From Escallonia rubra (taxonomy: Eukaryota; Streptophyta; Magnoliopsida; Escalloniales; Escalloniaceae), in assembly GCA_033065855.1 (NCBI GenBank), contig JAVXUO010001690.1:62001-126000 (forward strand): a DNA stretch of 64,000 nt. The letters run 5' to 3'. Under the pieces are notes generated by a model. That model was not told the DNA's origin. It was given only the letters and a program-made list of their open reading frames with translations, and made no database searches. The translations under genes were made by a program, and so were the position numbers. Within the stretch, counting starts at the first letter, position 1, and the number at the start of each line of letters is the position of its first letter. Shown here in pieces: positions 1-64,000 of this stretch.

Positions 1-300
1 CCCCGCCCCCACTCCGAACCGCAACTTGCGGTTCTCTGAGACTACTTTTTTCTTGATGGCCCCCACCCCCCACCCCCCCCCCGAACCGCAACAAGGGGTT
101 GCGGTTCTCTATGCCGTGGCTCCCACCCCCGAACCGCAACAAGGGGTTGCGGTTCTCTGTGCCGTGGGCCCCCACCCCCGTGGGCCCCCACCCCCCCCCC
201 GAACCGCAACTTGCGGTTCTCTGAGACTATTTTTTTTCTTCGTGGCCCCCAGCCCCCAGCCCCTTCCTCCCCCACCCCCGAACCGCAACAAGGCGTAATT
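1..300. repeat. Palindrome array, left part of element A
   Basis: This G/C-skewed DNA (runs of CCCCCACCCCC on this strand) carries repeated hairpin units of the form GAACCGCAAC-spacer-GTTGCGGTTC, at roughly 17-37, 91-116, 130-155 and 199-220. Some have the long spacer (AAGGG) and some a very short one (CGCAACTTGCGG). The array is the mirror image of 9900-10215 in copy B. Long proline/glycine-rich open frames occur on both strands, but they are by-products of the repeat and not genes. Confidence 0.85.
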
Positions 301-1330
301 GTTGCTAAAGGCGTAATTGTCACTAAAGGTGAAAATTAATTAGACAATTTTTCACGAATTTATAAAAAATAGCTAGAGCTAGATTTTGCCAAAGTACAAA
401 AAATAGACCCTAGTTATTTTTAAAAGATCTGTATCAGGGAAAATTTTTAAATTTTTCCAAAGACTGGAAAGGGGTTAACTGATACGCGGAACCTTGTAAC
501 TTTGCAGTGTAATTTAAAATATCAAACTAGCGCGATTTCGAGCGAAACTTTTATGATAACCCTAGAATGTTGGGAAGTTCCATTTCCCAGGAATTCGGGC
601 AATTCTGAAGCCGTTACCTATTTTTTTGGCCGAACGGGTTTTTAATCGCTCGATCCGGACACCGGTTCGGGATTTTTGGGCGAAAAATCCCGAAAAATAC
701 TTTTTCGATAATGAATGAATTCAGGAAGCCTGAAATAGCATTTTAAAGCACTTTTGAGATTTTCTGAAACCAGGGGGCATTTTTGGTAATTTGCCACCCT
801 GAGAGTGGTGTTTTGGTAATTTTCCCGGTAAAGTTTTTCAAAGGACTTCTTAATCCAGAAATGTAAGTAAAACACCTGAAATGTTATTTTGAAGCTGACT
901 GCGGGGCGTTAGGGTGCTAATGATGCCCCGGGGGCATTTCGGTAATTTGTCGCTCAGCGGGGGTATTTTGGTAATTTAACATTGTAAAATTTTTCGACTT
1001 ACTTTTAGTTCGGGAAGGGGTGTAAGACACCCGGAAAGTTATTTTTTCAATTGTTCTGAGATGTTTGTTGGGGCGATGGCTGTCAGGGGGTATTTTGCAT
1101 AAGTTGGGGGTGTTTTGGTAACTTTCCCCCTTAAAATACCCTGAGGAAATATTTGGTATATAATTGACGTAATACCTTTAAAAAGTGGTTTTTTAAAGCG
1201 AGTTTGTGGAGTTGGTAGTGTTGCAGACATCGGGGGGGGGTATATTGGTAAATTGTCACGTTGGCTCTAAATTTTAGAAAAATAGAGTAATTAAGCATTC
1301 AGAGCGGTGGGAAGTGAGGAATTGTTTTAA
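301..1330. repeat. Subterminal block of element A
   Basis: Non-coding and mirror image to 8885-9895 in B. It contains short recurring motifs of the type GGGGGCATTTTGGTAATTT at about 770-800, 925-975 and 1085-1130, and a segment near 600-700 (GGCCGAACGGG...GGACACCGGTTCGGG). That segment reappears in the opposite orientation at 5155-5230, 5770-5830, 9530-9580 and 10760-10815. These internal repeats are part of the long terminal region of this MULE family. Confidence 0.75.
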
Positions 1331-1461
1331 TACATTTAAATAATGAGATAATGACTATTGCTAACCCGTTGGTAAGCTAGGTTTAAGATACTGTTTTATT
1401 TTTGGAATGTATATATTATGGACGTTAAGTTGGTTTACGATTATATTTTGTTCTTAGAGAT

Positions 1462-2694
1462 ATGGATTTCAACCCCGGACCTCATGATACATCAATCCTA
1501 TACGATGACGATGACCACGTCGCGAGGTACGTATTTGACGGTGTCGATAGGGGTGTTTTCGAAACAATTCAAAGCACAACTCACCTCGAAGAGTGGGTAC
1601 TGAACGAGGAACAAATACAACTATTACACCGTCAAAATTTGGCCATGTTCACCGATCCCGGGATTTTGTCTCGGCATGACGATTGCCTTATATCCGCTCT
1701 AGTTGAACGATGGAGGGGCGATACGAACTCATTTCACTTCCGGTTTGGTGAAATGACTATTACATTAGAGGACGTCAGATTTATACTTGGAATCCCATGT
1801 CACGGCAAACCCATTACTTGGAGCAAAACGTCTGCATCCATATTAAAGATGGCTAGGCAGTATTTCCCGGGAATCCCGAGGGAAGCTCTTACGTCTAATG
1901 GCATAAAACTTAAATGGCTGAGAGAGCAGTACGGCGTGCTACCGGATGAATACACTCCTCATGATTTCGTGACGTATACGAAGGCATTCCTTCTGTATAT
2001 TATTGAAGCCATATTACTTCCGACGCATTCGAAAAACACGGTGCATCCGAAGTATATGGTGTTCTTGGAGGATCTTGAGGAGGTATACTCGTATTCGTGG
2101 GGTTCAGCTGTTCTTGCGCACCTATATCGAGCACTGCATAAGGCTACGAGATTGGATGCCAAGTCTATTGCCGCCTGCCTGACTCTATTACAGGTATGAG
2201 CATTTATATTCTTGTTTTGACGTGTCAAAGTATTCGTGATTATTTACTAATTCCATATAATGTTTGCATTCACAGGTTTGGTCTTACGAGAGGCTACCCA
2301 CGGGACGTCCACAACCGCGGGAATATTATGATGACCAGTGGCCTAGGGTGTGGGCCTGAGGGCCCGGGAGACCAACCGGAAGAGACGGGTAAACCCTCAC
2401 CACCATCTACAGTTCTATCGGGGGGAACTAGATATGCTGGATGCACCCCAGGTGACGTGGCAGCCATACGGCAAGGTGATGCATCAGTTGGATGAGTATT
2501 GTTGGCAACTTCCGGTAGTCGCTCAACGCCTGACGCGTACAACTCTCAGCCCCAGAGTCAGGGCCTGGGGGAGCCGTCTAGTCGCTTGCCTTCTTACGCG
2601 TCTTCACCGTAGAGCTATGAATTCTGGGAGCCGTATAGTCGCTTGCCTCCTGACGCGTACGACTCTCAGCGCCAGAGTCAGGTTCCCCAAGTAG
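1462..2694 (+). pseudogene. Plant mobile domain (PMD, aminotransferase-like) gene of element A, broken in exon 2
   Basis: Exon 1 (1462-2193) encodes about 244 residues with the PMD signature: a WRGDTNSFHF segment followed by GEMTITLEDVRFILGIPCHGKPI, and later a conserved ...LTLLQ/VWSYERLP junction across the intron. The intron is 2194-2275 (GT...AG), and exon 2 starts in frame with VWSYERLPTGRP. A stop at 2357-2359 ends the frame. B lacks this stop and reads on into NRKRRVNPHNHLQFYRGELD. In A that sequence is found in another frame (2350-2694). PMD proteins are found in plant transposons and as host silencing factors (the MAIL1/MAIN family). Here the gene lies inside a MULE, convergent with its transposase, so I read it as element cargo. 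A further open stretch (2764-3042) may be its tail and runs antisense through the transposase 3' end. Confidence 0.8.
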
Positions 2695-2890
2695 GAAGCA
2701 AGGCCTCGCGCCCAAGTCTGGTCGGACAAAAGACAAGCGACGAAGCCATTAAGGCCGGACAAGATGGGTTGGATCGACCGGCACTACTTCGGGCATGAGT
2801 CTGTCGATTCAACAGACTTTCCTCTTGCGACATTCATAGGTCATGAGGATATCAGAACGTTGGCACTGGAGACAGATATTTCAAATTTTG

Positions 2891-4769
2891 TCATGAATGC
2901 TTACATAGATCTGCTCCGGATTGCTCGAAATCGACTGAAACATTGGGCACGTAAGGAATGTGACCGTGGACTCTATTGGCTTCCTTCGTCCACCGATCCA
3001 AGATATACTCTGGAGGGATTTCACGAGCATTCTTGGCGCTAAAAAACCTCAACGCGTGTCGACAGAGTATACCTTTATGCTCAAACAGTTGACAGTTGCA
3101 ACTAACACCCCCGGTCTCCATACACACTGCTACGGTAAAATGTCTTCTGTTCTTCGGAGCCGACGAAGAGCACGGATTGGCAAAATTCGTCACATTTGTC
3201 AAAGCATAAACCTTGAGATATCTGTTGCATAGCTCGCGCAACTTTGTCATGCTATATTGATTCGACTTTAGTAGTTCATCCTGAAACTGTCTAAACATTT
3301 CCTTGGTATAGACTTGAGCCGCATGAGCCTCCAAAGGTGAAAAAACTAATATTTGTCTTTCTCTGTAAACTGTAGCCGCGTCGGCTTCTCTCTCAAGGTG
3401 AAATTGCCTGTCAAGGGCTTTCTGCATCTCTAGTACGAAATTTCTTATACTTGAAGAAGAGCGTACGTACCCATCAAAGAATGAATTCATACCTTCGCTT
3501 CTCGAGGTCGTAGTCATTCCGGCTGCAAAATTTTTTTTGGTGTAGGCACCGATCCACTGTGTCCTGATCTCATACAACGCTTGCAGCCATTCATGACTGT
3601 GCAAATAGTAGTCATCCATTAACTTGGCCCACCTCTCCTCGAACACGTCTACCGTCAACGATTTCTTCACACATGTATTAAAGTCACTCTTAAATGTCGG
3701 ATGGTTTGCATATACATTGTGAAGCCGTTCGGGATATTTGTTGCTTATGTGCCATGTGCACAGGCCATGGTGAGTATCTGGAAGGACCTTAGCGATTGCA
3801 TTTTTCATTGCCAGATCTTGGTCGGTGATGATGGTCTTTGGAGGAATATGATACATTGCTTCAAGCCACGTTTCAAATAACCACGTAAATGACTCTTCCG
3901 TCTCATCCCTAAGCAGGGCAAAGCCAAACAAGATTGACTGATAGTGGTGGTTCACCCCGGTGAACGGCGCAAAAGGCATAGAGTACTTATTTGTGCGGTA
4001 TGTGGTGTCAAACGTCACAACATCGCCAAAATTTTGGTAAGCAGCTCTAGAACGGGCATCCGACCAAAATATATTAGTAATGCGGTTCTCGTCATCCAGT
4101 TGGAGACTATAGAAAAAGCCAGAATTCTCACTCTGAAGGCGCCTGAAGATATCAAGTGTAGCTTGAGAATCACTCCTACAGGAAGACTCTCTCCTCTGAG
4201 CACGAAATTCATTTCGTAGGTCTACTTCGTTGAAGTTCAACTTGTCAACCCCCCCCCCCCAAGCCCGGCTTGAGAAAACCCCAATCTTTTTCGAAGGTTG
4301 AATTTTAGCCTCGGCCATTGTAAATATCAGTTCTCTGTGTGCCGCGACGCGCTTATTTCTCGGTGCTGATGAATTTGACCAATCCTATTAGGGGTCATCA
4401 ACTGATGGTTATGGCTCAACTCCACTCCCGTCACAACCCAATGGTTTTCATTTTTTTTTTTTTTTTCATACACATGGGCCTTGTGGCCGTTACTCGGAAA
4501 TGTGTCCCGTCTTCTTTGTCTTGATGGCCCTTCGTCACTAATTCGAACAACCGGGGGTACATGCGGGCTCCTCTATGACACTCAAATAGTCTTCCACAAA
4601 TTTGATCTGTATTGGCCCGTTTTCTAGTCGTCTTAATTCTAATACCGAAACCTATCGTTTTCGAATATGCTCTATAGTATGCTTCAACTTCGTCCAGTGT
4701 TTGATAAACTTGACCCAAGTAAGGTGGATCAGAATCTTCACAAAAAATATTTCCTCCAGTTGCATCCAT
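2891..4769 (-). pseudogene. FAR1-type MULE transposase of element A, frameshifted in its N-terminal third
   Basis: The start is at 4769 (MDATGGN), just after a polypyrimidine-AG acceptor, suggesting a 5'-UTR intron as in element C. The first piece (4769-4431) carries the FAR1 DNA-binding domain (YYRAYSKTIGFGIRIKTTR, ECHRG). An 18-base T run at about 4449-4466 breaks the frame, another single-base shift lies near 4325, and a run of ten C sits at about 4250. From 4318 a 475-residue frame gives the MULE domain. Counting from that frame's start, D104 (VTFDTTYRTNKY), D166 (ITDQDLAM) and E275 (SRSEGMN) form the likely DDE triad. The SWIM zinc finger CNC...GILCRH is complete. It is very similar to element C's intact protein, so only small indels in homopolymers separate it from an open gene. 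The stop at 2891 falls inside an opposing open frame. Confidence 0.85.
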
Positions 4770-4859: not shown

Positions 4860-6732
4860 TTGTGTGGAAACTTTTGACAGGAAAATTACCAAAATACCCC
4901 CGATGAGCGGCAAATAACCGAAATGCCCCCGGGGTTCATTATCACCCACTCCGAACCCCAAATCAGCTTCAAAACAGCCTTTCAGGTGTTTTACTTAGGT
5001 TTCTGGACAAAAAAGTCGTTTGGAAAACTTAACATTGTAGAATTACCAAAATACCCCTATCGGGGTGGCAAATTACCGAAATGCCCCCTGGCATCGAAAA
5101 ATCTCAAAAGTGCTTTGAAATGCTATTTTAAGCTTCCTGAATTCATTCTTGATCTAAAAAGTATTTTTCGGGATTTTTTGCCCAAAAATCTCGAACCGGT
5201 GTCTGGATCGAGCGCTTAAAACCCCGTTCGGCCAAAAAAATAGCTAACGACATCGGAATGGCGCAAATTCTGGGGAAACGGAACTTCCCAACATCCTAGG
5301 GTTCTCATTAAAGTTCCGCGCGAAATTGCGTTAGCTTGATATTTTAAATTACATTGCAAAGTTACAACGTTCCCCGTATCAGTTGACCCCTTTCCAGCCT
5401 ATGGAAACATCTCAGAACAACTTTAAAATAACTTTTCGGGTGTCTTACACCCATTCCCGAACTAAAGGCCAATAGGAAAATTTTGACAAGAAAATTACCG
5501 AAATGCCCCCGTTGGGCGGCAAATTACCGAAACGCCCCCGGGGGTTCAATATCATGCTATATTGTCGTGCAACTTTTAGGTGTTTGACTTAACTTTCTGA
5601 AAATTATAGTCGTTCTAGACTTAACAGTGTAGAATTAGCAAAATACCCCTCTCGGGGTGGCAAATTACCGAAATGCCCCCTGACATCGAAAAATCTCAAA
5701 AGTGCTTTGAAATGCTATTTTAAGCTTCCTGAATTCATTCTTGATCTAAAAAGTATTTTACAAAAGTTTCACCCAAAAATCCGGAACCGGTGTCCGGATC
5801 GAGCGCTTAAAAGCCCGTTCGGCCAAAAAAATAGCTAACGACATCGGAATGGCGCAAATTCCGGGGAAACGGAACTTCCCAACATCCTAGGGTTCTCATA
5901 AAAGTTTCGCGCGAAATTGCGGTAGTTTGATATTTTAAATTATACTGCGAAATTACAAGGTTCCCTGTATCAGTTGACCCCTTTCCAGTCCAGGGAAAAT
6001 CTGAAAGTTTTCCCTGATATACATCTTTTAAAAATAACTAGGGTCTTTTTTTTTTGTACTTTGACAAAATCTAGCTCTAACTATTTTTTATAAATTCGTG
6101 AAAAATCCAAATTTTTACGCCCTAAAAAAATGACTATTTTTTGACTTCGAATGAATATTCGCTAATAAACGCTAGTTCAATCCCTAATTTCAAACTCTCA
6201 AAAAACACGAATTTTAGACTATGGTAAGAACAATTTAAGCTAAACACAATTTAAACAAATCATTGGTAAGAACAATTTGAAATTAACATTGAATTATAAG
6301 AAAATTCAAAATACTTACTTGTTTTAACTTGATATATTGCTCAAGAAAAATCCACCGATCTTCTAGCGTAATTTTTTTTGTAAGTGAGATATGGAGTATG
6401 AAGTGTGTGTTGGTAAAGATGATGGGGAGTGGAAGAAAGGGTTCGGGGAGAAGGGTTTATAAAGAGGAAAAAATGAGGGAGAGAGATGAAAGAAGGTAGA
6501 GAAAAAAGGAAAAAGGATGGGGAACCGGGCACGTGGCAGGGGGGCCGCAAAATGGGGGGGGGACCGCAACACCTTGTGTTGCGGTTTGGGCAGGGGGGCC
6601 ACGTGGCAGGCAGGAAGGGGGACCGCATGGTGGGTGGGTGGGTGTAAAAAAAATTAATGATACGGACCGCAACTAGGACTCCTAGTTGCGGTCCGGTGGA
6701 TATTATCCACCGGTAGACCCCGATCGGTCCCC
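4860..6732. repeat. Long right terminal region of element A
   Basis: Non-coding. It holds at least four short blocks of the type AAATTACCGAAATGCCCCC (about 4875-4935, 5040-5090, 5493-5545, 5630-5690) and two copies of a segment of about 200 bp (5100-5300 and 5690-5900, ending CTAGGGTTCTCAT). An AT-rich part follows, then a G-rich end with palindromes built on CCGCAAC/GTTGCGG (about 6571-6590 and 6664-6693). 5640-6732 matches 10600-11836 in the same orientation, which is expected if one is the right end of A and the other the left end of the inverted copy B. The last bases are ...CCGGTAGACCCCGATCGG plus TCCCC. Confidence 0.8.
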
Positions 6733-6738
6733 ATATAT

Positions 6739-7323
6739 GATGGGTACGTACGCTCTTCTTCAAGTATAAGAAATTTCGTACTAGAGATGCAGAAAGCCCT
6801 TGACAGGCAATTTCACCTTGAGAGAGAAGCCGACGCGGCTACAGTTTACAGAGAAAGACAAATATTAGTTTTTTCACCTTTGGAGGCTCATGCGGCTCAA
6901 GTCTATACCAAGGAAATGTTTAGACAGTTTCAGGATGAACTACTAAAGTCGAATCAATATAGCATGACAAAGTTGCGCGAGCTATGCAACAGATATCTCA
7001 AGGTTTATGCTTTGACAAATGTGACGAATTTTGCCAATCCGTGCTCTTCGTCGGCTCCGAAGAACAGAAGACATTTTACCGTAGCAGTGTGTATGGAGAC
7101 CGGGGGTGTTAGTTGCAACTGTCAACTGTTTGAGCATAAAGGTATACTCTGTCGACACGCGTTGAGGTTTTTTAGCGCCAAGAATGCTCGTGAAATCCCT
7201 CCAGAGTATATCTTGGATCGGTGGACGAAGGAAGCCAATAGAGTCCACGGTCACATTCCTTACGTGCCCAATGTTTCAGTTGATTTCGAGCAATCTGGAG
7301 CAGATCTATGTAAGCGTTCATGA
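6739..7323 (+). pseudogene. 3' fragment of FAR1-type MULE transposase (element B)
   Basis: Opens at the A/B junction. The first in-frame Met is at 6787 (MQKALDRQFHLERE) and the frame runs 178 residues to the stop at 7323. It is almost identical to the last part of A's protein and contains the complete SWIM finger (CNCQLFEHKGILCRH). It lacks the FAR1 DNA-binding domain and all three catalytic residues, so it cannot be an active transposase. The final residues differ slightly from A (CKRS instead of CKHS). Confidence 0.85.
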
Positions 7324-8751
7324 CAAATTTTGAAATATCTGTCTCCGGCGCCAACGTTCTGATATCCTCATGACCTAGGAATGTCGCAAGAGGAAAGTAT
7401 GTTGAATCGGTAGACTCATGCCTGAAGTAGTGTCGGTCGATCCAACCCATCTTGTCCCGCCTCAATGGCTTCGTCGCTTGTCCTTTGTCCGACCGGATGC
7501 TTGGGCGTGAGGCCTGGATTCCTACTTGGGGAACCTGACTCTGGTGCTGAGAGTCATACGCGTCAGGAGGCAAGCGACTATACGGCTCCCAGAATTCATA
7601 GCTCTGCGGCGAAGACGCGTCAGAAGGCAAGCGACTAGACGGCTCCCTCAGGCCCTGACTCTGGGGCTAAGAGATGTACGCGTCAGGCGTTGAGCGACTA
7701 CCGGAAGTTCCCAACAATACTCATCTAATTGATGCATCACCTTGTCGTATGGCTGCCACGTCACCTGGGGTGCATCCAGCATATCTAATTCCCCCCGATA
7801 GAACTGTAGATGGTTGTGAGGGTTTACCCGTCTCTTCCGGTTGGTCTCCGGCCCCCAGACCGACACCCTAGGCCACTCCTCATCGGAATATTCCCGCGGT
7901 TGTGGACGTCCCGTGGGTAGCCTCTCGTAAGACCAAACCTGTGAATGCAAACATTATATGGAATTAGTAAATAATCACGAATACTTTGACACGTCAAAAC
8001 AAGAATATAAATGCTCATACCTGTAATAGAGTCAGGCAGGCGGCAATAGACTTGGCATCCAATCTCGTAGCCTTATGCAGTGCTCGATATAGGTGCGCAA
8101 GAACAGTCGAACCCCACGAATACGAGTATACCTCCTCATGATCCTCCAGAACACCATATACTTCGGATGCACCGTGTTTTTCGAATGCGTCGGAAGTAAT
8201 ATGGCTTCAATAATATACAGAAGGAATGCCTTCGTATACGTCACGAAATCATGAGGAGTGTATTCATCCGGTAGCACGCCGTACTGCTCTCTCAGCCATT
8301 TAAGTTTTATGCCATTAGACGTAAGAGCTTCCCTCGGGATTCCCGGGAAATACTGCCTAGCCATCTTTAATATGGATGCAGACGTTTTGCTCCAAGTAAT
8401 GGGTTTGCCGTGACATGGGATTCCAAGTATAAATCTGACGTCCTCTAATGTAATAGTCATTTCACCAAACCGGAAGTGAAATGAGTTCGTCTCGCCCCTC
8501 CATCGTTCAACTAGAGCGGATATAAGGCAATCGTCATGCCGAGACAAAATCCCGGGATCGGTGAACATGGCCAAATTTTGACGGTGTAATAGTTGTATTT
8601 GTTCCTCGTTCAGTACCCACTCTTCGAGGTGAGTTGTGCTTTGAATTGTTTCCAAAACACCCCTATCGACACCGTCAAATACGTACCTCGCGACGTGGTC
8701 ATCGTCATCGTATAGGATTGATGTATCATGAGGTCCGGGGTTGAAATCCAT
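7172..8751 (-). pseudogene. Plant mobile domain gene of element B, broken in exon 1
   Basis: Exon 1 runs 8751-8021, the intron 8020-7939 (GT...AG on the minus strand) and exon 2 starts at 7938. Exon 1 matches A's up to about residue 195 (HPKYMVF). A one-base loss near 8140 then shifts the frame. Exon 2 is better than in A: VWSYERLPTGRPQPRE through NRKRRVNP and QFYRGELDML to a stop at 7648. A second open stretch (7630-7172) carries repeated SRLP.DA motifs and a GWIDRHYF segment. It ends antisense to the SWIM region of the transposase fragment, so the two frames share about 150 bp on opposite strands. Whether this tail is joined to the PMD protein by splicing or frameshift is inference. Confidence 0.75.
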
Positions 8752-8884
8752 ATCTCTAAGAACAAAATATAATCGTAAATCAACTTAACGTCCATAATAT
8801 TTACATTCCAAAAATATAACCGGATCTTAAACCTAGCTTACCAACGCGTTAGCAATAGTCATTATCTCATTATTTCAATGTATT

Positions 8885-9895
8885 AAAATAATTCCTCACT
8901 TCCCACCACTCTGAACGCTTAATTATTCTACTTCCCTAAAATTTAGAGCCGATAATTTACCAATATACCCCCCGATGGCCGCTACACCACCAACACCACA
9001 AAATCACTTTTAAAACCACTTTTTAAATGTATTACGTCAATTATATACCAAATATTTCCTCAGGGTATTTTAAGGGGGAAAGTTACCAAAACACCCCCAA
9101 CTTATGCAAAATACCCCCTGACAGCCATCGCCCCAACAAACATCTCAGAACAACTGGAAAAATAACTTTCCGGGTGTCTTACACCCCTTCCCGAACTAAA
9201 AGTAAGTCGAAAAATTTTACAATGTTAAATTACCAAAATACCCCCGCTGAGCGACAAATTACCGAAATGCCCCCGAGGCATCATTAGCACCCTAATGCCC
9301 CGAGATCAGCTTCAAAACAACATCTCAGGTGTTTTACTTACATTTCTGGACTAAAAAGTCATTTGAAAAACTTTACTGGGAAAATTACCAAAACACCCAT
9401 TTCGGGGTGGCAAATTACCAAAAATGCCCCATGGCTTAAGAAAATCTCAAAAGTACTTTAAAATGCTATTTTAAGCTTCCTGAATTCATACATGATCCAA
9501 AAAGTATTTTTCGAAATTTTACGACAAAAAAACCCAAACCGGTGTCCGGAACCAGCGATTAAAAGCCTGTTCGGCCAAAAAAATAGGTAACGGCTTCAGA
9601 ATTGCCCGAATTCCTGGGAAATCGAACTTCGAAATATCCTCCGGTTTTCATAAAAGTTTGGCGCAAAATCGCAATAGCTTGATATTTTAAATTACACTAC
9701 AAAGTTACAAGGTTCTGCGTATCAGTTAACCCCTTTCCAGTCATTGAAAAAAATCTGAAATTTTTACCTGATATTGATCTTTTGAAAATAACTAGGGTAT
9801 GTTTTTTACACTTTGGAAAAATCTAGCTCTAGCTATGTTTTATAAATTCGTGAAAAATTGTCTAATTAATTTTCACCTTTAGTGACAATTACGCC
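8885..9895. repeat. Subterminal block of element B
   Basis: Mirror image of 301-1330. Non-coding, with the same short ACCAAAATACCCCC and ACCGAAATGCCCCC motifs and a GGACACCGGTT-type segment, here reading AACCGGTGTCCGGAACC near 9538. It ends in AT-rich sequence shortly before the palindrome array. Confidence 0.75.
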
Positions 9896-9897
9896 TT

Positions 9898-10555
9898 TAG
9901 CAACAATTACGCCTTGTTGCGGTTCGGGGGTGGGGGAGGAAGGGGCTGGGGGCTGGGGGCCACGAAGAAAAAAGTAGTCTCAGAGAACCGCAAGTTGCGG
10001 TTCGGGGTGGGGGGTGGGGGCCCACGGGGGTGGGGGCCCACGGGGGTGGGGGCCACGGCACAGAGAACCGCAACCCCTTGTTGCGGTTCGGGGGTGGGAG
10101 CCACGGCACAGAGAACCGCAACCCCTTGTTGCGGTTCGGGGGTGGGGGTGGGGGGTGGGGGCCATCAAGAAAAAAGTAGTCTCAGAGAACCGCAAGTTGC
10201 GGTTCGGAGTGGGGGGTGGGGGCCCACGGGAACCGGGGGTGGGGGCCACGACACAGAAAGTTGCGGTTCGGTGGGGGTGGGGGCCCACGGGAACCGGGGT
10301 GGGGGGTGGGGGCCACGGTACAGTGAACCGCAACCTCTTGTTGCGGTTCGGGGGAGAGGAAGGGGGTGGGGGCCCACGGGGGTGGGGGAGGAAGGGGGTG
10401 GGGGATGGGGGCCACGAAGAAAAGGCAACTGCTTGTTGCGGTTCGGGCTGGGGGGTGAGGGGCCCACGGGAACCGCGGGGTGGGGGGTGGGGGCCACGTA
10501 AGAAAGAGAAAAGAAAAAAGGGCAGGGGGTGGGGGGCCACGAAAAAAAAGAAGAA
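9898..10555. repeat. Expanded palindrome array of element B
   Basis: G-rich on this strand, with at least eight hairpin units GAACCGCAAC-spacer-GTTGCGGTTC or shortened forms, separated by GGGGGTGGGGGCCACGG-type spacers. Two adjacent units near 10060-10140 repeat with a period of about 47-48 bp. Two spacer classes alternate: one contains GCACAGA and the other a GAAGAAAAAAGTAGTCTCA stretch. The many long proline/arginine/glycine frames on both strands come from the repeat and are not genes. The G runs could also form quadruplexes (inference). Confidence 0.85.
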
Positions 10556-10559
10556 GCGC

Positions 10560-11836
10560 AACACTATTTTAGACTTAACATTGTTGAATTAACATTGCAA
10601 AAATTTAACAGTGTGGAATTAGCAAAATATCCCTATCGGGGTGGCAAATTACCGAAATGCCCCCTGACGTCGGAAAATCTCAAAAGTGCTTTGAAATACT
10701 ATTTTAAGCTTCATGAATTCATTCTTGATCTAAAAAGTATTTTACAAAAGTTTCGCCCAAAAATTCCGAACCGGTGTCCGGATCGAGCGCTTAAAAGCCT
10801 GTTCGGCCAAAAAATAGCTAACGACATCGGAATGGCGCAAATTCCAGGGAAACGGAACTTTCCAACATCCTAGGGTTCTCATAAAAGTTTCGCGCAAAAT
10901 CGCGCTAGTTTGATATTTTAAATTACACTGCGAAGTTACAAGGTTCCCCGTATCAGTTGATCCCCTTTCCAGTCCAGGAAATAATCTGCAATCTTTCCCT
11001 AATATACATCTTTTAAAAATAACTAGGGTCTCTTTTTTGTACTTTTGCAAAATCTAGCTCTAGCTATTTTTTATAAATTCGTGAAAAATTCAAATTTTGA
11101 CGCCCTAAAAAATGACTATTTTTTGGACTTCGAATGAATATTCGCTAATAAACGCTAGTTCAATCCCTAATTTCAAACTCTCAAAAAACAAAAATTTTAG
11201 ACTATGGTAAGAACAATTTAAGCTAAACACAATTTAAACAAATCATTGGTAAGAATAATTTGAAATTAACATTGAATTATAAGAAAATTTAAAATACTTA
11301 CTTGTTTTAACTTGATATATTTGTATCAAGAAAAATCCACCGATCTTCTAGCGTAATTTTTTTTTCGTTTGTATTGTTGTGGAGATTTTGTAAGTGAGAT
11401 ATGGAGTATGAAGTGTGTGTTGATAAAGATGATGGGGAGTGGAAGAAATGGTTCGGGGAGAAGGGTTTATAAAGAGGAAAAAATGAGGGAGAGAGATGAA
11501 AGAAAGTAGAGAAACGTCGGAAAAAGGACGGGGAACCGGGCACGTGGCAGGGGGGCCACAAAATTGGGGGGGGGGGGGCGGCAAAATGGTGTTGCGGATT
11601 TGGAGGTGACCGCAAAATGGTGTTGCGGATTTGAGGGGGGGACCGGAGGGGGGTGCCACGTGGCAGGCAGGGAAGGGGGACTGGGGGACGCCTGCCACGT
11701 GGCAGGCAGGAAGGGGGACCGCATGCCGGACTGTTGAGGGGTGGGTGGGTGGGTGTAAAAAAAATCAATCATGCAAACCGCACCCCCGAGATGCGGTCCA
11801 GTGGATAATATCCACCGGTAGACCCTGATCGGCCCC
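10560..11836. repeat. Terminal region of element B
   Basis: Matches 5600-6732 in the same orientation. It shares the CCGGATCGAGCGCTTAAAAG segment, the AT-rich stretch with AATATTCGCTAATAAACGC, and the GC-rich end with CACGTGGCAGG repeats and a CCGGTAGACCC terminus. It has insertions relative to A's end near 11580-11720, where extra GTGTTGCGGATTTG and CCACGTGGCAGGCAGG units occur. No coding capacity is recognised. Confidence 0.75.
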
Positions 11837-12728: not shown

Positions 12729-13814
12729 TAGGGCTATATACGAACCGAGTTCGAGCCGAATATGGGTGTGTTCGAACTCGGTTCGTTTAAGTTTTGGTAT
12801 GTTCGAGCTCGGCTCGTATTCGTTAAGAGCAAAAAATTCAATGTTCGAACTCGGCTCGAGTTCGTGACTGAAGAACTCGGGCTCGACTCGCTTGACTCGT
12901 TTAACAATACGAGTCGAACTCGTGTTCCGAAACTTGGCTCGTGTTCGAGTTCAACATCCAACAAATCCCTAAATCTATAAAAAGGAAATCCTCAAATCTT
13001 TCAATCTAATCAAGCTAAAATGAATTAAAAGCGATATTATAGAATATACAAAGAGGGATGCAGAATAAAACACTACAAATTAAATAAATTATTGGAGATC
13101 TTGATCTATTGGAGATGAAAACAAAGAAATGGCGTCGTTGATGCATGCGCGGGCGACGGGGAGACGATTACTTCAAAGACATACGCCAGTGACGGTTAGA
13201 TGAAGACTTCGAAGAGATGCGACGGCGAGATGATGACTTCGAAGAGATGCGATGATGGCATCATAGACAGGCAGAGACCGGCGTTGTAGATAGCGTCGTT
13301 GACGGCGTCGAAGCCATGATGTGCATGCGTGGAAGAGAGAGGCGGGGTGGAGGGGGTATGTGCAATCTGTGAGGCGTGTGTGTGTGACGGGAAAAGGGAT
13401 GGAGAGCAGACAGCTGCGGCAGTGGTCTGTGTGTGCTTTGTATGTGTTTAGGTTAGGTTTTAGTTTATATACTTAGGGTTTCTTAGACGTTGGGCTTCAC
13501 AGATTGGGCTAATCCCACGAAGCTTGGGGTTTTGTGCTAATTAACTTTAGGGCCTTAGTTTAAATTATTAATTTGTATTATTATGAAAATGTTAATTTTT
13601 TTAATATATTATAATTTTTTTATTTATTTATTTAGACGAGTTGTTCGCAAACACGTTTGCGAATATTTTGGAGTGTTCATGTTTGGCTCGTTTAATAAAC
13701 GAGTTCTATAAACTAGTTCATGTTCGGTTCGTATATTATATAAACGAACGCGAACGAATTTTAAGGAGGGCGAACCGAGCCATTCGTGAACGGCTCGGTT
13801 CATTTGCAGCCCTA
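12729..13814. mobile_element. Non-autonomous hAT element with perfect 8-bp target duplication
   Basis: The ends are TAGGGCTATATACGAACCG and, as the complement of the right end, TAGGGCTGCAAATGAACCG. They are flanked on both sides by TCCACATG (12721-12728 and 13815-13822). The 8-bp duplication and the TAGGGCTG start are typical of plant hAT elements. Subterminal DNA is crowded with GTTCGAACTCGG and GGCTCG-type motifs in both orientations, as expected for transposase-binding sites. The 1086-bp body has no transposase frame, so the element depends on a partner in trans. The central part, 13100-13400, is G-rich, repeats GACTTCGAAGAGATGCGA-like units and does not look coding. Confidence 0.9.

Positions 13815-60025: not shown

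Positions 60026-60030
<5 letters not shown>
59541..60030. other. AT-rich spacer before element C, no gene seen
   Basis: No supported frame or repeat. Confidence 0.5.

Positions 60031-60068
<38 letters not shown>
60031..60068. repeat. (AT)19 microsatellite at the left edge of element C
   Basis: It directly abuts GGGAGCTGATCCG, taken as the end of element C. Confidence 0.9.
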
Positions 60069-60070
<2 letters not shown>

Positions 60071-60164
60071 GAGCTGATCCGTTGAGAGCGTGGGCAAAAT
60101 AGGAGAAGTTGCAAGCGCGATCTGACCGTCCATCCCGAAAGATGGACGGCCCAGATCGCGCCTT

Positions 60165-60510
60165 TTTCGAAAGCTGTCAGCCGTCCACCATACAGTATGG
60201 CGGACGTTTTTTTTTTACCTTATTGCCCCTCCGCGCCTGTCCGCTACACTGTATGGCGGAGGACATTAAAGTCCTGATGGGAGACAGCAAAAAGACGTCC
60301 GTGATACTGTATAGCGGACGTCTCCCAGTCTCCCAGGCTGACACCTTCCTGACAAAAAAAAAAAAAAAAGGTATCCGCTATACAGTGTATCGGACCTCGC
60401 CTAGGCTGACAGCTGTCAGGTCCTGTCAGGACCTGACTTTCAGGGACTTTATTTCTGCACGTGTCAGAGTGTCGGGAATAATTTCCGCTATACAGTATCG
60501 CGGACAGGCT
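60165..60510. repeat. Left palindrome set of element C
   Basis: About five diverged palindromes of the form TCCGC(T)ATAC-A-GTATAGCGGA occur near 60181-60207, 60240-60262, 60299-60321, 60372-60395 and 60486-60507. An extra palindrome, CCGTCCATC...GATGGACGG, lies at 60126-60149, inside a longer GCGCGATCTG...CAGATCGCGC inverted repeat (60116-60161). Confidence 0.8.
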
Positions 60511-61090: not shown

Positions 61091-63388
61091 ATGTCTGATT
61101 TCGTGTCGAGCTCCAACACCCTCGTAGATGCTAGTGATCCGTATCTAGGACGAACCTTTCAAACATTGGAGGAAGCTGGAGAATGTTTCCGAGCGTATTC
61201 ATTGAGGGTTGGATTTGGCATTAGAATAAAGACTTCAAGAACAAGCAACATAACGAGAAAGATATGCTCTCGCTTATACGAGTGCCATAGGGGCAGAAAC
61301 CTAGTGCAAAATGAGACACGCGTAGGCAACGATGACAGTGATGACGAAATAGGATATTCGCGCAGAAGACAGGACTTCTTTGCGCGAACGAATTGCCAGG
61401 TCAAGATGTTCATAAGCTATAAAGCCAAGCAAGATCATTGGCTTATTACCAGCCTGGAACTGGCACACAATCACCCGTTAGTAACCCCTTCTAAGGTGAG
61501 TCAGATGCATCAACACAAGAAGATGGGAAAGGTCGCGAGGAGCCTCATTCACACAATGAGCGATGCGCGGCTAGGACCTACCGACATGATTAATGTTCTT
61601 GCTGAACAGGCCGGGGGAATTCAAAATTTAAACTTTAACACGACAGACGTTCTCAATGCGGTCCGAACCCATAGACGAGCCGCGTATGACCTCAATGATG
61701 CTCAAGCCACAATGAGCCTATTGAAGCGGATGCAGATGGAGGACCCGCAGTTTACCTTCGATTATAAACTTGACGACAAGCATCGAGTTAGCACAATTTT
61801 ATGGGTCAACGGTCGTTCAAGGCTTGCTTATAAGCATTTTAGGGATGTCGTGACTTTCGACACCACATACCGTACCAACAAGTACTCGATGCCGTTTGCC
61901 CCTTTCACGGGGGTCAATCATCATTATCACTCCATCCTGTTCGGGTTCGCCTTGTTAAGGGACGAGAGCGAGAGTTCTTTTGAATGGTTGTTTAGTGTGT
62001 GGCTGGAAGCCATGAACTTCAAAGCACCCAACGTTATCATCACCGATCAAGATTTGGCAATGAAGAAGGCTATTGCCACCGTCTTCCCAGATACTCGACA
62101 CAACTTGTGCACTTGGCACATAAGCAACAAATACCCCGAACGTTTGCATCACATGTACGTAAAGTTTCCAGACATGAAAGAGGATTTTGACACGTGCGTT
62201 AGCAAGTCGTTAACGATTAAGGAATTTGAGGAGAGGTGGGAAAAGCTTGGTGAGGATTACTCATTGCAAGACAACGGGTGGCTCCAGCACATGCAGGAGC
62301 GCAAAGAGAAATGGATTGGCGTTGACACGAGGAGGAATTTTTCCGAGGGCATAAAAAGGGCGGGCAGGAGTGAATCTATGAATGCCATGTTCGATAGTTA
62401 CGTGGGTACAGCTACCAATTTGAAGAGTTTCGTCACATCCGCACAGAAAGCAGTTGCGTCGTTGTTCGTGAAAGAAAGGGCTGCGGACTTTGCAACCACG
62501 TACAAACAGAGGAGAAGGTTGCTTGAGACCCCGCTGGAGCTGAACGGTGCCAAAGTCTATACGAAGGAGATCTTCTTGCTGTACCAAGTAGAGCTGCAGA
62601 AATTGGGACGGTACTGTATAAACAAGGTGGCAGAAAAGTCTACGCGTGAGTACAAGGTTTATTCGCTCGTGAATGACCTCGTTCCTGAGAAGCTGCGCAG
62701 AATGTATACGGTGAGCCACGACACACTGACGAACTCGGTGACATGTGTTTGCAAGAAGTTTGAGTTACATGGCATCCTGTGTAGAGACATTCTGCGCTTT
62801 TTCACCCAGAAGAATATCAGGACAATCCCCGATAAATACGTCTTGCCACGGTGGACGAAAGGTGCTAACAGGTTGCACGGTACCATTGCCTTTCCGGAGC
62901 ACCCGTATACTGACTTTGAAGAATCGGAGACGTTACGGTATAATCATCTGGTGACGAGTTTCACCCGTTTGTCCGTAAAGGCTGCTGCTTCAATGGTCGG
63001 TTATAAACATCTCCTCGAGGTAGCTCAGCAGCAAGAGCCCATCGTTGACCAGTTGGAAGCTGCTTCAGTCACCAATGCGATTGACACCGAGCCTACGACG
63101 GGGGTATCAGAAGATGACGAGCCGGGGGAGGAAGACGACAATGATATCCGGCCGTTGGATCCAATTATATCGCAAACGAAAGGTCGCAAGAGATCTACGC
63201 GGATGAAAAGCTCTATTGAAACGGCAACTCAACCTAAAAAGCTGCGAATGTGTGCATTGTGCAACAAAATGACCGACCACGACAAGCGGAACCATTACAA
63301 GGCACTGGGGATAAGTTCAGGGGGTTTGCAAGACGGGGAAGAAGGTGACGCCGAAGATGAGGACGAACAAGCTACAGTGGACCTTTAA
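61091..63388 (+). CDS. FAR1-type MULE transposase, intact
   Basis: 765 residues without a stop. The FAR1 DNA-binding domain is about 20-135 (CFRAYSLRVGFGIRIKTSR, LYECHRG, HWLITSLELAHNHPL). The MULE domain is about 240-440, with likely catalytic D257 (VTFDTTYRTNKY), D319 (ITDQDLAM) and E428 (GRSESMN). The SWIM region is about 550-570 and reads CVCKKFELHGILCRD: the three cysteines are present, but the fourth ligand, His in elements A and B, is Asp here. An acidic tail, a basic KGRKRSTRMK stretch and a CALC...DHDKRNH cluster near 722-736 end the protein. It would cut and insert element C and relatives. The family is also the source of the host regulators FHY3/FAR1. The flanking repeat arrays argue that this is a transposon gene and not a domesticated one. 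The start follows a splice acceptor. Confidence 0.9.
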   Translation: MSDFVSSSNTLVDASDPYLGRTFQTLEEAGECFRAYSLRVGFGIRIKTSRTSNITRKICSRLYECHRGRNLVQNETRVGNDDSDDEIGYSRRRQDFFARTNCQVKMFISYKAKQDHWLITSLELAHNHPLVTPSKVSQMHQHKKMGKVARSLIHTMSDARLGPTDMINVLAEQAGGIQNLNFNTTDVLNAVRTHRRAAYDLNDAQATMSLLKRMQMEDPQFTFDYKLDDKHRVSTILWVNGRSRLAYKHFRDVVTFDTTYRTNKYSMPFAPFTGVNHHYHSILFGFALLRDESESSFEWLFSVWLEAMNFKAPNVIITDQDLAMKKAIATVFPDTRHNLCTWHISNKYPERLHHMYVKFPDMKEDFDTCVSKSLTIKEFEERWEKLGEDYSLQDNGWLQHMQERKEKWIGVDTRRNFSEGIKRAGRSESMNAMFDSYVGTATNLKSFVTSAQKAVASLFVKERAADFATTYKQRRRLLETPLELNGAKVYTKEIFLLYQVELQKLGRYCINKVAEKSTREYKVYSLVNDLVPEKLRRMYTVSHDTLTNSVTCVCKKFELHGILCRDILRFFTQKNIRTIPDKYVLPRWTKGANRLHGTIAFPEHPYTDFEESETLRYNHLVTSFTRLSVKAAASMVGYKHLLEVAQQQEPIVDQLEAASVTNAIDTEPTTGVSEDDEPGEEDDNDIRPLDPIISQTKGRKRSTRMKSSIETATQPKKLRMCALCNKMTDHDKRNHYKALGISSGGLQDGEEGDAEDEDEQATVDL

Positions 63389-63534
63389 CCGAATGTATAA
63401 GTTTGACATTTGTAATAATTTTCGGAGGGATAATTTTTCCACCGAATACTGGAATTTTTTAAAAATGGACCTATGAGAGGCCATCGAATTAAATCTATAG
63501 TCTTTATTTTTTTTTATTTTTTTTTGTAAGCCCC
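63389..63534. other. 3' UTR region of the element C transposase gene
   Basis: AT-rich with long T runs (63505-63525). No gene. Confidence 0.5.
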
Positions 63535-63708
63535 GTCCGCTATACAATGTAGCGGACGTCATCACAGGCAAACTTTTGGTCTTCTTTTATGTCCGCTATA
63601 CAATATAGCAGACGTCATCGATGAAAAACTTTTGGTATTCTTTTATGTCCGCTATACAATGTAGCGGACGTCATCGCAGTAAACTTTTGGTCTTCTTTTA
63701 TGTCCGCT
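63535..63708. repeat. Right palindrome array of element C, 56-bp period
   Basis: GTCCGCTATAC-AA-T(G/A)TAGC(G/A)GAC starts at 63535, 63591 and 63647. A fourth unit starts at 63702 and is cut after GTCCGCT by the CACTA element. Spacers are GTCATCRCAG..AAACTTTTGGT-type with CTTCTTTTAT. Spacing is 56, 56 and 55 bp. Confidence 0.9.
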
Positions 63709-64000
63709 CACTACAAGAAAAAGTGTCATTAATGACAACTTTTTTAATGACAATATAAAAGTTGTCACTGTTGGTCACCAACTGTGACAAGTATAAAGGT
63801 CGTCATAATTGGTCTGATATAGTATACTATCTAGTGATAAGAATGAAATTGTTACTCAATTTCGTCATTAATTGTTTGACGAAATAATTTTGATGAAGCT
63901 ACAGTGACAACTTTAAAAATGTTATCACTGTTTTAACTATGAATAGTGACAAAACTAAAATGTTGTCACTTTTGAAAAAGGAAAATGAATTTTGACAAAG
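63709..64000. mobile_element. Left end of a CACTA (En/Spm-type) element, continues past the window
   Basis: Starts CACTACAAGAAAAAGTGTC, the classic CACTA terminal sequence. The following 290 bp are filled with subterminal motifs GTGACAAC / GTTGTCAC in both orientations (about 63735-63990), as expected for transposase-binding sites. The expected 3-bp duplication would be GCT (63706-63708). Its partner lies outside the window. Confidence 0.9.

Follow-up and report, generated by a model that had tools for sequence, protein, structure and literature searches.

Introduction

A 64,000-nucleotide stretch of the Escallonia rubra genome, referred to here as the window (C2127:62001-126000) and nuclear to judge by its genes and elements, contains MULEs whose non-coding DNA carries many short palindromes. 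What are these palindromes for? To our knowledge, DNA recognition by FAR1-type plant MULE transposases has been little studied, and the transcription factors FHY3 and FAR1 descend from transposases of this type. A first-pass annotation of the window proposed that the palindromes are either transposase dimer-binding sites or hairpin signals, co-evolving with the FAR1 domain of each transposase. Our analysis of the window, and of the genome searched (566 Mb, 3,222 contigs), suggests that they may be operator-like sites to which an element-encoded protein binds as a dimer, the FAR1-type transposase being the likeliest candidate; we give this reading about an even chance.

Results

Elements A and B

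Elements A and B do not belong to separate families. They represent a single MULE with a PMD gene, present in two inverted copies; window positions 6-3476 of A and 10215-6738 of B are 95% identical over 3.5 kb. Their features are as follows.

1-300, minus strand: palindrome array on the left side of A, running on left of the window; dyads at 16-34, 83-107, 131-155 and 201-219
1462-2800, plus strand: PMD (plant mobile domain, PF10536) gene of A; ORF 1462-2199, E = 5.7e-44; later part approximate
2891-4318, minus strand: MULE transposase of A (PF10551, 2.4e-33; SWIM)
6563-6585, no strand: right-end dyad of A, ACCGCAAC-N7-GTTGCGGT, that is, CCGC-N13-GCGG
6663-6695, no strand: right-end dyad of A, 33-bp palindrome CGGACCGCAAC...GTTGCGGTCCG, that is, CCGC-N17-GCGG
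6728-6738, no strand: right terminus of A, ..TCCCC, ending at about 6732, then ATATAT
6738-10215, minus strand: element B, partial inverted copy of A, cut at 6738 inside the transposase gene
Starting at 8751, minus strand: PMD gene of B (Pfam)
9898-10555, no strand: palindrome array of B with G-rich spacers; 5 complete dyads, 3 half-sites and 8 G4 motifs
10563-11836, minus strand: long TIR of B; CCGC-N11-GCGG dyads at 11610 and 11778; terminus at about 11836, adjoining (TA)n
L032:3391-4660: left TIR and terminus of A

The left end of A lies in the DNA directly left of the window (L032), where (TA)n is followed by GGGGCCGATC, the TIR and the array; it is 97% identical to B 11854-10222. A therefore spans both ends, is about 8.3 kb long and has TA repeats on both sides. 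Long terminal inverted repeats, a feature of MULEs, are present in A, with left and right TIRs that are 90.6% identical over 1.0 kb and 78% identical over the outer 150 bp. The FAR1-like part of its transposase (4763-4354) has shifted frames in the window copy. Judged by eye, the left and right termini of A and the termini of B and of a further element, D, adjoin (TA)n, and the ends of A, B, C and D begin with GGG(G). Because the ends seen lie in (TA)n, a target-site duplication of 8-11 bp would be masked. Ninety of 3,779 A-type candidates were scored, and those other than A of the window are 87-98% identical to it; stop-free transposase frames occur among the A-type copies. One A-type transposase match (G000:C2172:16136-17503) lies within a 2,208-aa open frame and is possibly a fusion. 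The 3.5-kb inverted repeat formed by the two copies (1-3476 and 6738-10215) holds a partial transposase and the PMD gene, with a 3.2-kb spacer. A long hairpin transcript from this repeat could act as a silencing locus, for which maize Mu killer is a parallel.

The palindromes of A and B do lie in G-rich spacers, as originally described. The array of B comprises two dyads with 9-bp arms and a 1-bp loop (9985-10003 and 10187-10205), three with 10-bp arms and a 5-bp loop (10065-10089, 10113-10137 and 10325-10349) and three half-sites with the right arm alone (at 9916, 10260 and 10435); the inverted copy A adds four further palindromes within window 1-300. Eight G-quadruplex motifs lie between the dyads of B in 658 bp, all on one strand; the other DNA of the window has 10 in 52 kb, on both strands. 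The array of B sits ~1.3-1.9 kb inward of the terminus (about 11836), between the long TIR and the PMD gene, and that of A is placed likewise, away from the tip in L032. Judging from splice-like sequences (ACAA/GTAAGT in the TIR and TTCTTAG before the PMD start), the array probably lies within a 5' leader intron of the PMD gene. The long TIR of B presumably comprises promoter and leader.

Between A and B, four dyads show 0 changes in 88 positions, as compared to 137 in the 3,164 arm positions that lie outside the array. At the latter rate 3.8 changes would be expected, and the chance of none is about 2% (a Poisson estimate). However, the array spacer has itself changed little, with 4 changes in 211 positions and 18 gap columns, and measured against it the dyads show no clear advantage.

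Element C

Element C, at the right of the window, has a transposase with a MULE domain of the same Pfam family as that of A, and dyads of its own.

60069-60508, plus strand: left end of C; terminus GGGAGCTGATCC after (TA)n at 60030-60068
60182, 60238, 60296, 60374 and 60484, plus strand: five left dyads, upstream of the transposase gene
61091-63388, plus strand: transposase, 765 aa, with FAR1 (PF03101) and MULE (PF10551, 2.3e-32) domains
63534-63669, plus strand: right dyad array with a 56-bp period; dyads at 63534-63558, 63591-63613 and 63647-63669
63702-63708, plus strand: first letters of a fourth right dyad, split by a CACTA element and resuming at L033:4370
L020:4471-4936 and L068:471-1664: further genes of C, namely one with a B3 domain and two short ORFs

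The dyads thus flank the transposase gene on both sides, with the 56-bp period on the right that the first-pass annotation had reported. Its placement of the palindromes close to the ends fits the left side of C, where they lie ~110-440 bp from the terminus at 60069, and fails for the A/B arrays, 1.3-1.9 kb inside. Nor are the C palindromes perfect, as had been claimed, for all eight in the window contain 1-3 mismatched or wobble pairs. The CACTA element inside the fourth right dyad (CACTACAAGAAAAA ... CTTTTAGTG) is about 4.66 kb long (window 63709-64000, on to L033:4369) and is flanked by the 3-bp duplication GCT; inverted GTGACAACTTT-type motifs stand at its start.

C is known from its left terminus inward, its right terminus being outside the sequence reached; TIRs were demonstrated for A. 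It is a larger, multi-gene MULE. In 29 of 30 loci the right array is followed by a B3-domain gene; the 30th locus is that of the window, where this gene is found on the far side of the CACTA insert, divided between L033 and L070. The B3 match (PF02362) scored 35.3 bits against a cut-off of 30.1 in the one copy scanned. Downstream of this gene are two short ORFs and further dyads, including three GTCCGCGAAACTATATCGCGGAC units in L068. The B3 protein and the short ORFs are possible accessory or anti-silencing factors.

From 4,702 first-look candidates, 59 C copies were scored, the window copy included; the other 58 match it at 94-96% identity, and internal stops are absent from 53 of the 59. Palindromes are present on the right side in 30 of 30 copies fetched (3-8 each) and on the left in 28 of 30, with up to 7 mismatches allowed per dyad and with neighboring elements contributing to the high left counts. 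Absence from most family members, which the first-pass annotation had named as a refutation of its reading, thus does not hold for C. In the two left-side misses, the flank is cut at 597 bp by a contig end (L012) or has no dyad in 1,500 bp (L027). The left terminus adjoins (TA)n in 21 of 21 copies with the terminus motif, among 30 examined, 9 of which have no such motif. Elements of different families also adjoin one another across (TA)n (L003/L034, L064 and L056), with C beside D twice and a C-type dyad near an A-type end. A search with the C transposase found no relatives in viral_contigs or genome_contigs.

A Shared Site with Near-Constant Spacing

The palindromes were at first described as private to each family, with differing sequences. 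Their flanking sequences do differ, but the half-site CCGC/GCGG and an 11-bp spacing are common to A/B and C. The window holds 11 exact CCGC-N11-GCGG matches, all inside A/B (7) or C (4). When the spacing k in CCGC-Nk-GCGG is varied from 1 to 25, the other matches are four at k = 5 (the short A/B form), one each at k = 13 and k = 17, two at k = 21 and one at k = 16, the last outside the elements; the remaining values give 0. The k = 16 match is the sole one in 48 kb of window background. In 1,000 dinucleotide shuffles per region, the mean numbers of exact N11 sites were 0.011 for the A array, 0.016 for the B array and TIR, 0.002 for C left and 0.000 for C right, as compared to 2, 5, 2 and 2 observed; the right end of A has 0, with a shuffle mean of 0.006. 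In the non-coding DNA of 30 C copies (47 kb), there are 229 matches at k = 11, 18 at k = 21 and one at k = 13, and none at any other k from 0 to 30. The coding sequence of 28 of the 30 copies holds an exact CCGC-N11-GCGG as well, which has no further symmetry and is taken as one inherited coincidence. A possible likeness of the half-site to the GCM site is not used as evidence.

Genome-wide counts, which take in sequence matches anywhere in the genome, within MULEs or outside them, extend this pattern. The form GAACCGCAAC-N5-GTTGCGGTTC with up to 3 mismatches matches 2,219 sites (backwards control, 7). The A-type pattern ACCGCAAC-N{1,25}-GTTGCGGT matches 1,334 (control, 1), and the C-type pattern CCGCTA-N{1,25}-TAGCGG matches 16,316 (control, 371). 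Among the 50 matches listed for each type, which are the first places and often neighbors in one array, 49 A-type sites have N5 (an 11-bp core gap) and one has N9; all 50 C-type sites have N7, that is, N11 between the CCGC cores. The backwards controls and the shuffles rule out chance or base composition as the source of the palindromes, and the claim that they exist in many copies is borne out by counts far above the shuffle means.

The spacing is nevertheless near-constant rather than absolute. The right-end dyads of A in the window have gaps of 13 and 17 bp, four A/B dyads have 5 bp, and one A-type copy has 10 bp. In the upstream stretches of 16 A-type copies, 7 contain CCGC-N11-GCGG palindromes, for example GGACCGCAACTCCTAGTTGCGGTTTG (L058) and GAACCGCAATTCCTTGTTGCGGTTC (L054), and one of the 7 (L056) has a 10-bp form as well; the stretches of the remaining 9 lack a recognizable (TA)n-GGG terminus motif. 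N11, and not the N13 or N17 of the window, is thus the commoner spacing where the end is visible.

Among the papers listed in literature searches, none gives an account of the site as judged by titles and the beginnings of abstracts; overlap with a paper on Mu-like antisilencing co-evolution, cited in the accessible part of PMC13317346, is possible. When the dyad sequences themselves were used in a text search, the matches listed hit a 10-letter string alone, and none is on plant transposable elements by title.

Symmetric Change of Both Half-Sites in D

Element D (L034) lies across (TA)n from a C copy (L003) and starts with GGGGCGCGATTCACACC. Four TCGC-N11-GCGA sites at 207-370 are followed by a PMD gene, the protein of which is 87% identical to that of A. 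As compared to CCGC..GCGG in A, both half-sites have therefore changed symmetrically to TCGC..GCGA, and the layout is kept. This change agrees with two parts of the first-pass annotation, namely, that one plan recurs in several families with related transposases (A/B, C and D) and that symmetry outlasts sequence change between families.

The D site AATCGCAAC-N5-GTTGCGATT occurs 129 times in the genome, and its backwards control gives 0. Among the 50 matches listed, pairs of sites 10.9-13.1 kb apart with mirror-image loops occur on six contigs (C144, C252, C390, C869, C1004 and C1041), as expected of the two ends of one element; a pair on C827 has the identical loop at both sites. In a further palindrome of D type, AATCGCTGCTAAGAGCAGCGATT at the end of C1412, N11 is kept and the inner arms differ. 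In a two-by-two table of A and D half-sites with AACCGCAAC-N5-GTTGCGGTT as the reference form, the cells counted were the D form and the half-changed forms, which number 24 and 22 in the genome. The TCTTT/AAAGA loop, dominant among the D sites listed, is found in 1 of these 46 half-changed sites. Most of them therefore look like decay of A sites and not like steps toward D.

Arm Covariation within C

If the arms were maintained by pairing with each other, changes in one should be matched in the other, as the first-pass annotation anticipated. The C dyads examined for covariation, 59 distinct ones on the left and 38 on the right, were chosen for having at most 7 mismatches to a palindromic consensus; re-dealt arms served as the control. 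Both arms show strong conservation at positions 2-6, 8 and 10; the variable positions are 1, 7 and 9 on the left and 9 on the right. At left position 7, pairing is 0.37 observed versus 0.33 expected (p = 0.29), with T-C (34), T-G (21) and G-A (21) mismatches among 157 sites. The corresponding values are 0.51 versus 0.62 at left position 9, 0.89 versus 0.85 (p = 0.12) at right position 7 and 0.58 versus 0.59 at right position 9. Position 11 of the right dyads is a non-pairing C-A in 183 of 193 sites. Pairing at the level of re-dealt arms means that no arm-to-arm compensation is seen within C. The compensatory changes that had been anticipated are absent at positions 7 and 9, and the view that C palindromes are kept as paired arms is not borne out, since the variable positions show no covariation.

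Genome-wide, pair 7 of C-type sites is T-A in 16,316, C-G in 831 and mixed in 1,058 and 1,055, with backwards controls of 371, 34, 10 and 11, respectively; the T-A count allows spacers of 1-25, and 50 of the 50 matches listed have N7. By our own arithmetic, the symmetric excess corresponds to an odds ratio of about 12. However, 38 of the 50 C-G matches listed are one 19-mer or its reverse complement, which suggests that the excess mostly reflects a few symmetric site types multiplied by descent. One inner pair is paired in 39 of the 50 C-type matches listed versus 26 expected; among their 12 distinct sequences the figure is 7 versus 5.3, which is not significant (p = 0.32).

Transposases and FAR1 Domains

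The transposases of A (L036) and C (L003) are 47% identical in the FAR1 domain, 74% in the catalytic domain and 49% in the SWIM region; in full-length alignments, A-type copies align to the C FAR1 region at 37-43%. A and D (C1412) are 93% identical in FAR1, 94% in the catalytic domain, 85% in the spacer and 86% in the SWIM region. With FAR1 at 93% and the catalytic domain at 94%, FAR1 is not fast-evolving in the A-D pair. Accelerated FAR1 evolution was accordingly not seen there, and the proposed FAR1-specific co-evolution finds no support in this one pair. Close to the first zinc ligand, three residues are substituted: I to M, I to T (GIRIK/GIRTK) and G to A (ICGR/ICAR). All three changes occur in C1412, the one copy of the three in which palindromes were read, these being of the D type, and in C1443, which has a D-type PMD gene; L052 carries the first two. 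The substitutions are only candidates for such co-evolution.

Structural searches added little. A PDB sequence search returned a single match of no use (E = 0.79), and the AlphaFold models of the FAR1 region are of low confidence, with a mean pLDDT of 36.5 alone and 47.2 with a 12-sequence alignment. The accessible part of PMC6000157 describes FHY3/FAR1 proteins as binding DNA as homo- or heterodimers and gives their site as CACGCGC, from which the shared MULE core CCGC/GCGG differs; it also reports that FRS12, a FAR1-family protein, binds TATATATATATATATATAT. If the transposases of these MULEs, being of the FAR1 type, read TA repeats, this could account for their preference for (TA)n targets.

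Discussion

A near-constant spacing with a varied loop, a conserved half-site core, a symmetric change between A and D, and copies beside ends and gene starts together fit binding by a dimeric protein. The site would consist of two half-sites with the core (C/T)CGC...GCG(G/A), held 11 bp apart and repeated in the non-coding parts of related MULEs sitting in (TA)n. The binder would be a dimer of an element-encoded DNA-binding protein. A encodes a transposase and a PMD protein and C a transposase and a B3 protein; the transposase, of the FAR1 type, is the likeliest binder because it is the only kind of protein identified in both, and the dimeric DNA binding of FHY3/FAR1 proteins (PMC6000157) speaks for it as well. 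Clusters beside the ends may gather transposase for end recognition. Other dyads precede the transposase gene or lie upstream of a second gene, B3 in C and PMD in A, and clusters beside gene starts may let the transposase control, or keep open, the promoters of the element itself. End recognition alone would not call for an A/B array far from the tip or for C dyads between internal genes; both are more than it needs. Further points against the dimer reading are the ordinary FAR1 divergence between A and D, the different FHY3/FAR1 motif, the poor FAR1 models, the exceptions to the 11-bp gap, the equally well kept array spacer of A/B and the exact site inside the C coding sequence. Dimer binding, the transposase as binder, the promoter positions and a role in transposition or expression are what we infer from these arrangements.

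Precedents for element-encoded proteins acting on repeated, family-diverging motifs are provided by two systems, as far as the available portions of the cited papers describe them. VANDAL elements, Arabidopsis MULEs with VANC proteins (PMC5735166, PMC10398659), likewise have several genes per element and non-coding repeats of a short motif that differs between families, and such a motif is found in A, C and D. In contrast, the VANC21 and VANC6 motifs are 8-9 bp with no dyad described in those portions, and here a core and a geometry are common to the families. CACTA (En/Spm) elements with TNPA (PMC2613891) also have repeats near both ends, an element-encoded binder and divergence between families. 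They belong to another superfamily with another binder, whereas the unit here is a palindrome with a near-constant 11-bp gap, and A and C carry MULE transposases and GGG(G) ends rather than CACTA termini and a CACTA transposase.

Other MULEs share parts of the architecture, again according to the accessible sections of the papers. MuTAnT, SaTar, Micron and TAFT lie in (TA)n microsatellites (PMC4486113, PMC5907723). GGGG-type ends beside (TA)n and a Jittery-like transposase recall MuTAnT, and modular stacking across (TA)n with clusters of adjoining families recalls SaTar; no fixed-spacing dyad array is described in those sections for any of the four. Foldback MULEs such as Tm1 of root-knot nematodes (PMC3169594) have complex TIRs of tandem short motifs and a Mutator-type transposase, but the Tm1 motif is a 13-15 bp tandem repeat and not a dyad. 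PMD MULEs of grasses and Amborella (PMC5418596) also combine a MULE with a plant mobile domain; those are reported as PMD-transposase fusions, whereas the PMD of A is a separate convergent gene. In the window, a hAT-like non-autonomous element (12729-13814; TAGGGCT...AGCCCTA, 8-bp duplication TCCACATG) has, by eye, AACTCGGCTCG-type palindromic motifs near its ends, a similar plan in another superfamily.

The VANDAL precedent suggests the strongest alternative, that the palindromes are anti-silencing sites at which an accessory protein, PMD in A and B3 or a short ORF product in C, binds the repeated motif and removes silencing marks. Consistent with this alternative are the dyads in several intergenic regions of C, those ahead of the PMD gene in A and the B3 gene in C, and the DNA-binding nature of the B3 domain; the available part of PMC5418596 speculates that a MULE-captured PMD serves anti-silencing. 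However, A and C share the site and not the accessory gene, so that two unrelated proteins would have to recognize one CCGC-N11-GCGG, and Pfam scans, compared by family name, returned no VANC-named family. We regard anti-silencing as improbable, though it deserves serious consideration.

Less probable still is a mutational origin, in which template switching makes the palindromes, tandem duplication and element copying spread them, and palindrome correction instead of selection gives the symmetry. The 56-bp units of C look tandemly duplicated, and their spacer is fairly conserved too (0.88, versus 0.98 for the arms, in a test that picks units by dyad similarity, which favors the arms and deserves little weight). 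The same origin would account for an A/B array spacer with just 4 changes in 211 positions beside unchanged dyads and for one 19-mer making up 38 of the 50 C-G matches listed; the 33-bp palindrome of A (N17) also resembles a templated expansion of the N11 form in other copies. Such a process would leave unexplained the 11-bp spacing and core in three families, the varied loops and the scarcity of other spacings. Correction would moreover create arm covariation, which is absent within C.

It is highly unlikely that the palindromes bind a host transcription factor, its sites having been co-opted by several MULE families to drive the elements. The dyads do adjoin inferred leader and TATA regions, and MuDR TIRs hold promoters and cell-cycle enhancer motifs according to the accessible part of PMC3310237, but the symmetric change between the closely related A and D is not what binding by a host factor would predict. 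Hairpin signals, whether extruded DNA cruciforms or RNA hairpins (small-RNA precursors, or substrates as in single-strand transposition), have the least chance: five single dyads fold well as RNA (-9.8 to -28 kcal/mol) and MuTAnT has a foldback structure (PMC4486113, as far as available), but the variable C pairs are often mismatched and do not covary, and the loop length is nearly fixed, although a hairpin needs no fixed loop. The conserved half-site core and the lack of covariation favor a protein dimer over a hairpin. Of the two functions first proposed for the palindromes, binding of a dimer thus gains from the 11-bp spacing, and the hairpin loses.

DNA recognition and family specificity are open to direct testing by a few binding assays in these elements, which offer a short site of hardly varying spacing, present in thousands of copies, together with many intact transposase frames and a natural symmetric variant (A versus D). 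Speculatively, and with less confidence than in dimer binding itself, this FAR1-type MULE clade may use an operator syntax that sets two CGC half-sites at a distance of 11 bp and makes the letters flanking them a family-specific address, changing symmetrically with the transposase of the family. The ~17,000 addresses in the genome (16,316 matches of C type and 1,334 of A type, after subtraction of 371 and 1 for the controls) might then constitute a binding sink and a regulatory network for element-encoded, and perhaps domesticated, FAR1 proteins.
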